DNA of 29,636 bases from a virus: IMG/VR virus record IMGVR_UViG_3300045993_000883, positions 1 through 29,636 of that record; one strand, written 5' to 3'. Made by a program: the position numbers and the translations under genes. Positions within the stretch are counted from its first letter, which is position 1; every line of letters begins with the position of its first letter. Shown piece by piece: positions 2,943 to 6,681 of this stretch. The notes below the pieces were generated by a model. That model had not been told where the DNA came from, did no database searches, and saw only the letters and a program-made list of their open reading frames with translations.

Positions 2943-3765
2943 TTGTAATTTCCTTTTCTTTGTATTTTCTTGCATTTAAAAGCCACGTCGAAAATCTAGA
3001 ATTCCATTTTGGGCTTAAAGTCCCGTTTTCCGTGTGGTAAACAATAAATCTCTCTAACAAATCAGGATGGCTTGGATGTTCTATTCCTAGTTTTTCAGCA
3101 AGAGCAACATGTTCTTCTGTGTAAGTAAAATTTTGGTCGATTTCTGTTCTTGGTCTTTCAACGCATTTTTTAATCGATGTATTTCTTTTTTTCTTTACCT
3201 TAATCTCGATGTCCATTTTTTCATCTCCTTTTTGGTTGTCGCTATAATAATTATGTTTTTTATAATTATTATTATATATATTATTATATATATAGTTGTT
3301 GTTCTTCGGTTCTTCATCATGTTGCTCATGCTTTTTTGAATTTAGGATAAAGTCAGTGTTTGCAACGGCTTGAGTGTATGATTTTGCTTTTTTTTGGTAG
3401 GTAATTTGATGTTCTTCAGATGTTGTTCTAAACTGTCCAAAATTTCCAATTGTTCCGAGCATTAATTTAACGATTACGCTTCGATCTGTTCGTTTGCTTA
3501 AACGCTGAATAAGATTTTCTCTCTCCAGTCTTTTAATTGAAGCTATCAATTCAGCGTCTGTATAAGTCTCTGCTTTCTTCGTGCTTCCTTGTCTAATTTT
3601 AGGACTTAAATACTGCCTTATTTTTTCGTAAGAGACTTTAAAAAATTGACCAACAATTCCAGTTTTTAAATCCATCGATTTCTTAAAAAAATGATAAATG
3701 CATCTATCGATTAAAAACAAATTTTCAAGAATGCTATCTTCTTCATCTACAAAAACGATTCTCAT
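2782..3765 (-). CDS. phage replication initiator, O-like with DnaT-like C-terminus
   Basis: This encodes 327 residues. Residues 35-105 look like a winged-helix region (VGQFFKVSYEKIRQYL, then TDAELIASIKRLERENLIQR). Residues 150-200 form an Asn/Tyr/Lys-rich low-complexity linker. Residues 213-268 resemble the C-terminal domain shared by DnaT and many O-type proteins (HPDLLERFIVYHTENG, WNSRFSTWLLNA). The architecture of DNA-binding domain, linker and partner-binding domain fits a phage origin-binding protein that recruits the helicase loader encoded next. AGGAAGAGG lies about 11 bases before the ATG. The linker DNA is the AT-rich tract reported separately as a possible origin. Confidence 0.65.
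   Translation of the reverse strand: MRIVFVDEEDSILENLFLIDRCIYHFFKKSMDLKTGIVGQFFKVSYEKIRQYLSPKIRQGSTKKAETYTDAELIASIKRLERENLIQRLSKRTDRSVIVKLMLGTIGNFGQFRTTSEEHQITYQKKAKSYTQAVANTDFILNSKKHEQHDEEPKNNNYIYNNIYNNNYKKHNYYSDNQKGDEKMDIEIKVKKKRNTSIKKCVERPRTEIDQNFTYTEEHVALAEKLGIEHPSHPDLLERFIVYHTENGTLSPKWNSRFSTWLLNARKYKEKEITNGKASGFSKNVGYQQQRVEPKKSYIDKIHDSLARLQEIREQGCTDIYSNEFNL
3243..3294. other. AT-only tract inside the initiator gene, candidate origin unwinding region
   Basis: Of 52 consecutive bases, 51 are A or T (the only G is at 3255), with alternating TA steps and ATTATT repeats. It encodes the Asn/Tyr linker of the initiator (about residues 158-174), between its putative DNA-binding and partner-binding domains. 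In lambda-like phages the origin lies in the equivalent part of the O gene. I see no clear iterons beside it; GTTCTTC recurs at about 3300-3420 but irregularly. Confidence 0.45.
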
Positions 3766-3964
3766 TTTATATACAACCTCTTCCTTGATTTTTAAATTTA
3801 TTATTCATTTTGAATATTTCTTATTTACAAGCAGATATACTTTCGTTATCATTGCTTTGTTGTTTGAGAAAAATAGTTTAAATAGAAAAGGCTGGTACCT
3901 TCTCGTTACAAAGAAACCGCTTTTTTAAAAAAAGGATTTTTTGTTTAAACTCTGCTAAAAGTTA

Positions 3965-4010
3965 ACCGGCTCATTAAGTCCCTCTTCAAAGTTTGCTTAA
4001 TGAGCTCGGT
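3965..4010 (-). promoter_or_regulatory. attenuator-like hairpin in the regulator-initiator leader
   Basis: The arms 3965-3978 and 3996-4010 pair over 14 bp with one bulged base. The core is GCTCATTAAG against CTTAATGAGC and the outer part is ACCG against CGGT. The loop is 17 bases. In the minus-strand RNA the first arm is the last codons and stop of the 10-codon leader ORF, so translation would open the stem. Only a weak U-run follows, so termination is uncertain. Confidence 0.5.
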
Positions 4011-4029
4011 AAATTTCAAATATTTTCAT
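3997..4029 (-). CDS. putative 10-residue leader peptide
   Basis: The ORF is ATG 4029 to TAA 3999-3997 and encodes MKIFEIYRAH. It is preceded by an excellent Shine-Dalgarno (AAAGGAGGG, formed by the last codons of the regulator gene) with 5 bases of spacing after GGAGGG. Its final codons and stop form one arm of the downstream hairpin. It may be a regulatory leader peptide. Its short length leaves chance as an alternative. Confidence 0.35.
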   Translation of the reverse strand: MKIFEIYRAH

Positions 4030-4030
4030 C

Positions 4031-4312
4031 TTACCCTCCTTTTTTTGGTTTCGGCAATAATAGCTTAAAACCTAGTTCTTGTTCAATCTCTTTTATGCTT
4101 AAACCTATTTCTTTTTGAAAAATGTAATCGAGCCTATAATTCAATCCATAACTTTTGCAAAACTTTATAAGTTTTATGGCTGCGGACTGCGGAAGATTTC
4201 TTTTTTCATTATAAAATAAACTCAATGTAGTGTAGTCACATCCGCTTAATTTAGCGATATGCTTTAACTTCATCCCCAGGCTTTCTTTGATGTTGTGTAT
4301 TATGATGTTCAT
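4031..4312 (-). CDS. small helix-turn-helix transcriptional regulator (Cro/CI-like)
   Basis: This encodes 93 residues. Residues 14-40 (MKLKHIAKLSGCDYTTLSLF, then YNEKRN) match an XRE/Cro-type helix-turn-helix: a short basic helix, A-K-L-S-G turn, recognition helix and the N-E-K-R loop. The C-terminus is helical and ends in a basic PKPKKGG. There is no peptidase domain, so it is not a full-length LexA/CI-type repressor. It is the first gene of the minus-strand replication unit and diverges from the early plus-strand unit, the position of Cro or a compact repressor. The start at 4312 has no Shine-Dalgarno and lies at the predicted transcription start. An internal ATG at 4273 would cut into the domain. 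Confidence 0.75.
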   Translation of the reverse strand: MNIIIHNIKESLGMKLKHIAKLSGCDYTTLSLFYNEKRNLPQSAAIKLIKFCKSYGLNYRLDYIFQKEIGLSIKEIEQELGFKLLLPKPKKGG

Positions 4313-4319
4313 AAAGACT

Positions 4320-4347
4320 ATTCTACTAAGGATCTTTAATATGTCAA
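4320..4347 (-). promoter_or_regulatory. sigma70-type promoter for the regulator/replication operon
   Basis: On the minus strand TTGACA (4347-4342) is followed by a 16-base spacer and TAGAAT (4325-4320). The predicted start of transcription is at about 4313-4312, so the mRNA would begin at or within two bases of the regulator ATG at 4312. The -35 is a consensus match and the -10 has five of six consensus bases. Confidence 0.7.
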
Positions 4348-4431
4348 TAAATAAAAATTGTATATATATAAGGAGTTAGAAAGTATTTGATTTGTTGGCA
4401 GGATTAAATATAAATATTTTTTATAAAAAAC

Positions 4432-4460
4432 TTGACTTAACAATCTGCTAAATGTAAAAT
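4432..4460 (+). promoter_or_regulatory. sigma70-type promoter of the rightward early unit
   Basis: TTGACT (4432-4437), a 17-base spacer and TAAAAT (4455-4460) give a strong plus-strand promoter with a predicted start near 4467. It diverges from the promoter of the regulator gene about 85 bases away. The region between holds AT-rich sequence but no obvious repeated operator of the lambda type. Confidence 0.7.
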
Positions 4461-4537
4461 TCCCTTCATTGCAGCAAATCTCACGACTAAATAAGATTTG
4501 ATGCAAAGTAAAAAACCAAAATTACTTGAAGGGAATT
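4458..4537 (+). promoter_or_regulatory. nested inverted repeats at promoter and ribosome-binding site of the first early gene
   Basis: The inner stem pairs TTGCAGCAAATCT (4469-4481) with AGATTTGATGCAA (4494-4506), 12 of 13 positions, with a 12-base loop. The outer repeat AATTCCCTTCA (4458-4468) is perfectly complementary to TGAAGGGAATT (4527-4537), which contains the Shine-Dalgarno of the gene at 4541. The left arm of the outer repeat abuts the inner stem exactly. With the predicted start near 4467 only the inner stem is in the mRNA. A slightly earlier start, or read-through from upstream, would also allow sequestration of the ribosome-binding site. Confidence 0.55.
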
Positions 4538-4540
4538 ATC

Positions 4541-5008
4541 ATGAATTATATCTTAGATGACGAAACAAAAATAGCATTACGTTACTCAAACACTGTTCAT
4601 TTTTTAGAAAATGAAATACCAAACAATTTTGAAACTATAAACTACGATTACTACGCAAACATGTATTTTGACAACTCTTCTAAAAAAGAGCTTGTCAGTT
4701 GTCTTTTAAAAGATAGCGAAGACTTACAAGACGAAATCTACGATTCGATAGATGAGTTAGAACAAACATCAATATTTTTAAATCTTATTAATCCTGCATC
4801 ACAAAACAAGTGGCTACAAGATGCTTTGCAAAGAAAAGTATCAAACTTAGCCATCTCTTATCGTCAACAGCAAATAGAAGCAATTATTGAATATCTTAAA
4901 GTAAAAAATTTCCATCTTGCTGAAAAATCACAATCAGAAAAATATTTAACATATCACGATGATAAATATGGTTCTGCGTCACTTGATTCTGAAAGAAACC
5001 CGTTCTAA
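4541..5008 (+). CDS. hypothetical early protein
   Basis: This encodes 155 residues from ATG 4541. AAGGGA ends 6 bases before it. An upstream in-frame TTG at 4526 lies inside the Shine-Dalgarno region and is rejected as start. The protein is acidic and Tyr/Asn-rich in the first 60 residues, then helical (QDEIYDSIDELEQ, later SYRQQQIEAIIEYL). No family was recognised. As the first gene behind the strong early promoter and the structured leader, it is a candidate for an early host-takeover or regulatory protein. That is position-based inference. Confidence 0.7.
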   Translation: MNYILDDETKIALRYSNTVHFLENEIPNNFETINYDYYANMYFDNSSKKELVSCLLKDSEDLQDEIYDSIDELEQTSIFLNLINPASQNKWLQDALQRKVSNLAISYRQQQIEAIIEYLKVKNFHLAEKSQSEKYLTYHDDKYGSASLDSERNPF

Positions 5009-6597: not shown

Positions 6598-6681
6598 GGA
6601 GAGGTATGCAAGTGGTTAAAGCAGGCTGACTGTAAATCAGTTCTCGAGGGTTCGAAGGTTCAAATCCTTCCCTCTCCACCA
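6598..6681 (+). tRNA. tRNA-Tyr (GTA)
   Basis: The cloverleaf is complete. The acceptor stem GGAGAGG pairs with CCTCTCC. The D arm is TGC..GCA with GGTTAAA. The anticodon stem GCTGA/TCAGT carries loop CTGTAAA, giving anticodon GTA. A long class II variable arm is followed by T arm GAAGG-TTCAAAT-CCTTC, discriminator A and an encoded CCA. The 84-base length and long variable arm are normal for bacterial tRNA-Tyr. It lies inside the early operon, 9 bases after the SSB stop and 16 bases before the next gene, so it must be cut from the polycistronic transcript. It cannot read TAA or TGA. Confidence 0.95.

Follow-up and report, generated by a model that had tools for sequence, protein, structure and literature searches.

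The leader of the first early gene in a 29,636-base virus record (the window, meaning the whole stretch of DNA that was analysed) carries a perfect inverted repeat that connects the -10/start region of the predicted early promoter with the Shine-Dalgarno sequence (SD) of that gene. In folding calculations, the SD is buried when the RNA includes both arms of the repeat and is free when the RNA starts at the expected start of the early promoter. We favour, with moderate confidence, the reading of this leader as a start-site-dependent translation lock on the first early gene. On the strength of the modelled folds, the dependence of SD sequestration on the start is probably real and functional. 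A switch of this kind is already known from phage T4; unusual here are its place at a first early gene, its sigma-70-type promoter and its three-way junction.

Genomic setting of the leader

The window encodes a tailed phage, whose tail (with sheath, baseplate and tape measure) is contractile. Its rightward early operon includes a Sak4-like annealing ATPase, a possible single-strand-binding protein, a dCTP-deaminase-like protein and a tRNA-Tyr (GTA; window 6598-6681), and at the end of the rightward genes lies a 355-aa protein (window 11492-12559) with a weak match to a protein kinase domain, below the cut-off (E 1.5e-5). The leader in question sits between the first early gene and a divergent gene for a small helix-turn-helix protein (Table 1), which, judging from its profile matches, is likely the regulator of the early promoter. 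The regulator gene has a strong promoter match of its own on the minus strand (TTGACA-16-TAGAAT, window 4310-4347). The expected start of this promoter, at about 4313, touches the ATG at 4312, and the regulator mRNA is probably leaderless, as is the lambda cI mRNA. An imperfect 21-nt inverted repeat with a 17-nt loop (window 3958-4016) lies directly downstream of the regulator gene and is perhaps its terminator.

Three abutting helices are predicted in the leader

The sequence-only reading had described a 12/13 stem and a perfect 11-bp repeat in this leader, with their left arms adjoining. Both were found where it placed them, and the coordinates confirm that the left arms abut (4468/4469). 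The outer stem pairs AATTCCCTTCA with TGAAGGGAATT over all 11 positions, its arms lying 58 nt apart. The inner stem pairs TTGCAGCAAATCT with AGATTTGATGCAA, with one G4474-A4501 mismatch, and is the only 12/13 hairpin with a loop of 3-20 nt across the 29.6-kb window. In the predicted fold, the rest of the leader is filled by a third, weak stem, absent from the sequence-only reading, between AGUAA (4507-4511) and UUACU (4522-4526), which, though unstable by itself, fits a role at the RNA level in these models. Together the three helices tile positions 4458-4537 and meet in a three-way junction with no unpaired bases, at a predicted -23.7 kcal/mol; the longer segment 4458-4560 folds at -24.4 kcal/mol, with a z-score of -4.7. 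The 11-bp outer stem covers the whole of the SD, itself a prediction, whose pairing with a generic anti-SD is worth about -5.5 kcal/mol.

Table 1. Features of the leader and its surroundings (window coordinates)
Feature	Position	Strand	Remarks
Candidate upstream rightward promoter, TTTACA-17-TATCAT	3824..3852	+	Consensus 10/12, count not above chance; antisense to the regulator gene
Divergent small helix-turn-helix protein	4031..4312	-	93 aa; HTH_3 E 0.004 (below curated cut-off); phrog_8 transcriptional regulator E 7e-4
Weak candidate upstream promoter, TTGATT-16-TATAAA	4387..4414	+	Consensus 9/12; its transcript would include the left arm
Predicted sigma-70-type early promoter, TTGACT-17-TAAAAT	4432..4460	+	Consensus scan 10/12
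Left arm of outer stem, AATTCCCTTCA	4458..4468	+	Perfect 11-bp inverted repeat; extends from the last three bases of the -10 hexamer into the expected start region
Inner stem-loop	4469..4506	+	Arms 4469-4481 and 4494-4506 (12/13); 12-nt loop
Third, weak stem	4507..4526	+	Predicted fold; 10-nt A-rich loop; completes the three-way junction
Right arm of outer stem, TGAAGGGAATT	4527..4537	+	Includes the SD, GAAGGGA, 4528-4534
First early gene	4541..5008	+	ATG at 4541; 155 aa, acidic, pI 4.6; second gene upstream of the Sak4-like gene

Predicted access to the Shine-Dalgarno sequence depends on the start of the transcript

The predicted early promoter, a consensus match of a kind that in this AT-rich stretch is no commoner than in shuffles, has its -10 hexamer at 4455-4460, and the last three bases of the hexamer belong to the left arm of the outer stem. 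From the usual spacing, we infer a start at 4466-4469, most likely at A4468, which follows a pyrimidine. We computed the mean probability that the SD is unpaired for RNAs beginning at successive positions. It was 0.001 for starts at 4313, 4380, 4432, 4450, 4455 and 4458, and rose through 0.005 (4460), 0.02 (4461), 0.14 (4462) and 0.45 (4464) to 0.79 at 4465 and 0.88 at 4468. All the starts expected from the predicted promoter (4466-4469) fall in the open range, with values of 0.81-0.88. In a transcript started at A4468, no more than 1-2 nt separate the 5' end from the inner hairpin, which remains folded in the calculation.

It had been proposed from the sequence that the start site decides whether the SD is accessible. 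As a prediction this stands, but the idea of alternative starts of a single promoter does not: the left arm overlaps the -10 hexamer, and therefore the message of the early promoter itself cannot form the outer stem. The closed form must come from RNA entering from upstream, and the arrangement is thus better described as a lock against read-through.

Under the proposed mechanism, RNA entering from upstream would carry 4458-4537 entire, and the three-helix fold (outer 11 bp, inner 12/13 and third 5 bp) would pair the whole SD and block ribosome entry. Polymerase at the early promoter would begin near A4468, at a point within the left arm or immediately beyond it, and its transcript would retain the inner hairpin only, as a 5' cap, leaving the SD free. 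Translation of the first early gene would then require the firing of its own promoter, presumably under repressor control, and stray read-through would have no effect; this protective purpose is our interpretation of the computed behaviour.

Such read-through RNA would have to come from a source that is not evident, because neither a rightward gene nor a firm rightward promoter lies within 3.4 kb upstream, where the regulator and the next genes are leftward. Two consensus matches are possible sources, namely the candidate at 3824-3852, which would run antisense through the regulator gene, and the weaker candidate at 4387-4414. No integrase that would point to a prophage state was seen in the 29.6-kb record.

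Chance as an explanation of the fold

The outer repeat could be an accidental complement of a purine-rich SD in an AT-rich leader, with the inner hairpin unrelated to it and neither having a role. When the SD and start were kept and the ~110 nt upstream were shuffled (n=4000), an SD stem of at least 11 bp arose in 2 of 4000 leaders (~5 in 10,000). Over the ~40 genes of the window, we estimate that a stem this long would be met by chance at ~2%, or a few per cent, a figure that favours chance to that extent and leaves aside both the position at the promoter and the interior fold. Both of these speak against an accident: the left arm is positioned precisely on the -10/start region, the three helices abut exactly, and the fold is more stable than nearly all shuffles. 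The interior alone (4469-4526) was more stable than 1990 of 2000 shuffles, the other 10 being as stable, and with the outer arms fixed, the native energy was reached by 3 of 2000 shuffled interiors. The interior fold thus adds support that is independent of the outer SD stem.

The leader also stands out from other genes. For SD occlusion by a long-range stem, it ranks first among 688 genes, drawn from the window and from 44 loci with a related Sak4 protein. A strong predicted promoter lies 25-110 nt upstream of the start codon in 29 genes; of these, no other goes from <0.01 to >0.8 in SD access depending on the start, and the same switch appeared in none of 400 shuffled leaders.

SD stems do occur elsewhere in the comparison set, at L022 and at L041 and L042, which is a point in favour of chance. 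In L041 (about 3187-3253) and L042 (about 472-538), the SDs of divergent genes are inverted repeats of each other (TCCTTTC / GAAAGGA); each leader therefore folds on the other, a general route to SD stems without selection. Weighing the rank, the exact abutment and the placement of the left arm against these cases and against the lack of conservation described below, we regard chance as unlikely, though it fares best among the explanations other than the lock.

Relatives of the locus

Searches of viral contig, phage, plasmid and prokaryote genome collections found no homologue of the first early protein or of the divergent regulator, and the leader had no match in Rfam. Because no homologous leader was found in the collections searched, covariation and compensatory changes give no support either way. 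A DNA-pattern search with the outer arms gave 11 hits, mostly in unrelated sequence, against an estimated 12 or so expected by chance. A query with the replication protein returned no relatives, and one with the sheath protein returned distant relatives only. The search with the neighbouring Sak4-like protein yielded the 44 loci (41-69% identity), in which a different gene family takes the place of the first gene and there is no profile match to the first early protein. The fold is absent before the positional counterpart gene in five distant relatives (L011, L024, L025, L034 and L043), an absence of conservation that fits an accidental origin, and the start-dependent switch was not shown by the Sak4-locus leaders with a predicted promoter.

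A comparable arrangement, which speaks for the lock, was met in the relative L006, where an SD stem of 12 bp encloses a nested hairpin (2586-2597 / 2652-2663 region; z -4.1). It lies before a ribbon-helix-helix-like gene, with the upstream site ~80 nt from the SD and GTATCATATATGATAC as the nested palindrome. Its SD has a probability of being unpaired of 0.002-0.006 only when the left arm is in the RNA, and is otherwise partly open (~0.55-0.59). The SD stem is not shared by genes of the same family in other loci; since these homologues lack it, L006 is at most an independent case. The sequence TGATACATTTG, or close variants of it, recurs before the same ribbon-helix-helix-like gene in several other loci.

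Possible alternative roles in DNA binding and RNA stability

The inverted repeats might instead act in the DNA, with the inner 13-bp repeat (with GATTTGNTG half-sites) or the outer repeat serving as a pair of sites through which the divergent helix-turn-helix protein represses the early promoter, RNA pairing being a by-product. A regulator-like gene does diverge from the early operon, and short dyads recur at the corresponding promoter in some relatives, L021 and L007 among them. Three copies of the half-site lie within 115 bp (4389+, 4472- and 4495+), and the whole window has five where 1.4 are expected, a count reached in 2 of 100 shuffles; however, the motif was chosen post hoc, and the inner stem itself accounts for two of the copies. 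The proposal of a protein-site pair, which the sequence-only reading had also raised, found little support in the repeats: extra copies of either full arm in the window are not above chance, and apart from these stems the divergent intergenic region has no excess of repeats. A search with the inner hairpin gave one hit, unrelated, and related viral contigs yielded no copy of the hairpin and its flanking sequence, which also counts against an operator. Binding in the DNA further leaves unexplained the third stem and why the right arm of the outer repeat is the SD. An operator is not exclusive of a function in the RNA, but as the explanation of the repeats, with pairing a mere by-product, we think it improbable.

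By its structure, the ompA leader protects its message against 5'-end-dependent decay. That the inner hairpin does the same for the early transcript, or is an RNase III site, with the outer repeat incidental, seems to us very improbable. With a start at A4468 the hairpin would be suitably placed and folded at the 5' end, and 24 of 1000 shuffles of 4468-4540 are equally stable. Against this, the hairpin of the promoter's own transcript is only moderately unusual, and the perfect outer repeat with the SD is left unexplained. The left arm was also considered as the SD of a leftward gene, a reading that was rejected for want of a minus-strand start codon at a suitable distance.

Comparison with known start-dependent switches

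The start-dependent logic of the proposed lock has been established in T4 for e, soc, 49, I-TevI and segB and in phage Aeh1 for mobE (PMC2988022, PMC3014915). In T4 gene e, early transcripts fold and the start of the late ones lies within the stem; the folded RNA supports ~100-fold less synthesis (PMC3014915, PMC2988022). The likeness to these genes is twofold. Transcripts started upstream fold and hide the ribosome-binding site, and transcripts from the adjacent promoter start in the stem, lack the 5' arm and are translated; in the leader studied here, both the fold and such a start are predicted. There are also differences. The adjacent promoter is late in T4, whereas here it is a sigma-70-type match ahead of recombination genes, and the gene opens the early operon. 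In T4 the hidden form actually exists, as an early or middle transcript of long operons, whereas the upstream promoters here are consensus matches only. Finally, the T4 structure is a simple hairpin, in contrast to the three-way junction predicted here.

Insertion sequences offer a second comparison. Fold-back inhibition of the IS10/Tn10 (and IS50) transposase was reportedly described by Davis, Simons and Kleckner in 1985. In IS10 and IS50, the ribosome-binding site is paired with an arm located at the promoter of the element, but only when the RNA comes from outside, which makes the key gene deaf to outside promoters. For IS200, a stem occluding the ribosome site is mentioned in PMC3196728. 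These elements resemble the present leader in that outside-started RNA has its ribosome-binding site paired, a state that is here predicted. They differ in that the inhibition affects transposase genes, located close to insertion-sequence ends, whereas here an early phage gene with no homologue found is concerned. Fold-back inhibition of the IS10 type applies to elements integrated beside foreign promoters; the present record is a 29.6-kb virus fragment in which no integrase was seen.

Implications for early-operon control

A stronger form of the lock can be put forward tentatively, although we lean towards doubting it. Only the transcript of its own repressible promoter would allow translation of the first early gene, and read-through from the host or from antisense transcription could not trigger the lytic programme. 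The three-way junction over the promoter would then provide a second, RNA-level layer of immunity.

T4 late genes and insertion sequences are the settings from which a start-site-dependent translation switch is known; if the lock is true, a phage's first early gene would be added to them. The switch would act there as a safeguard against accidental expression, and would mean that the immunity of an early operon can rest on more than the transcriptional repressor.
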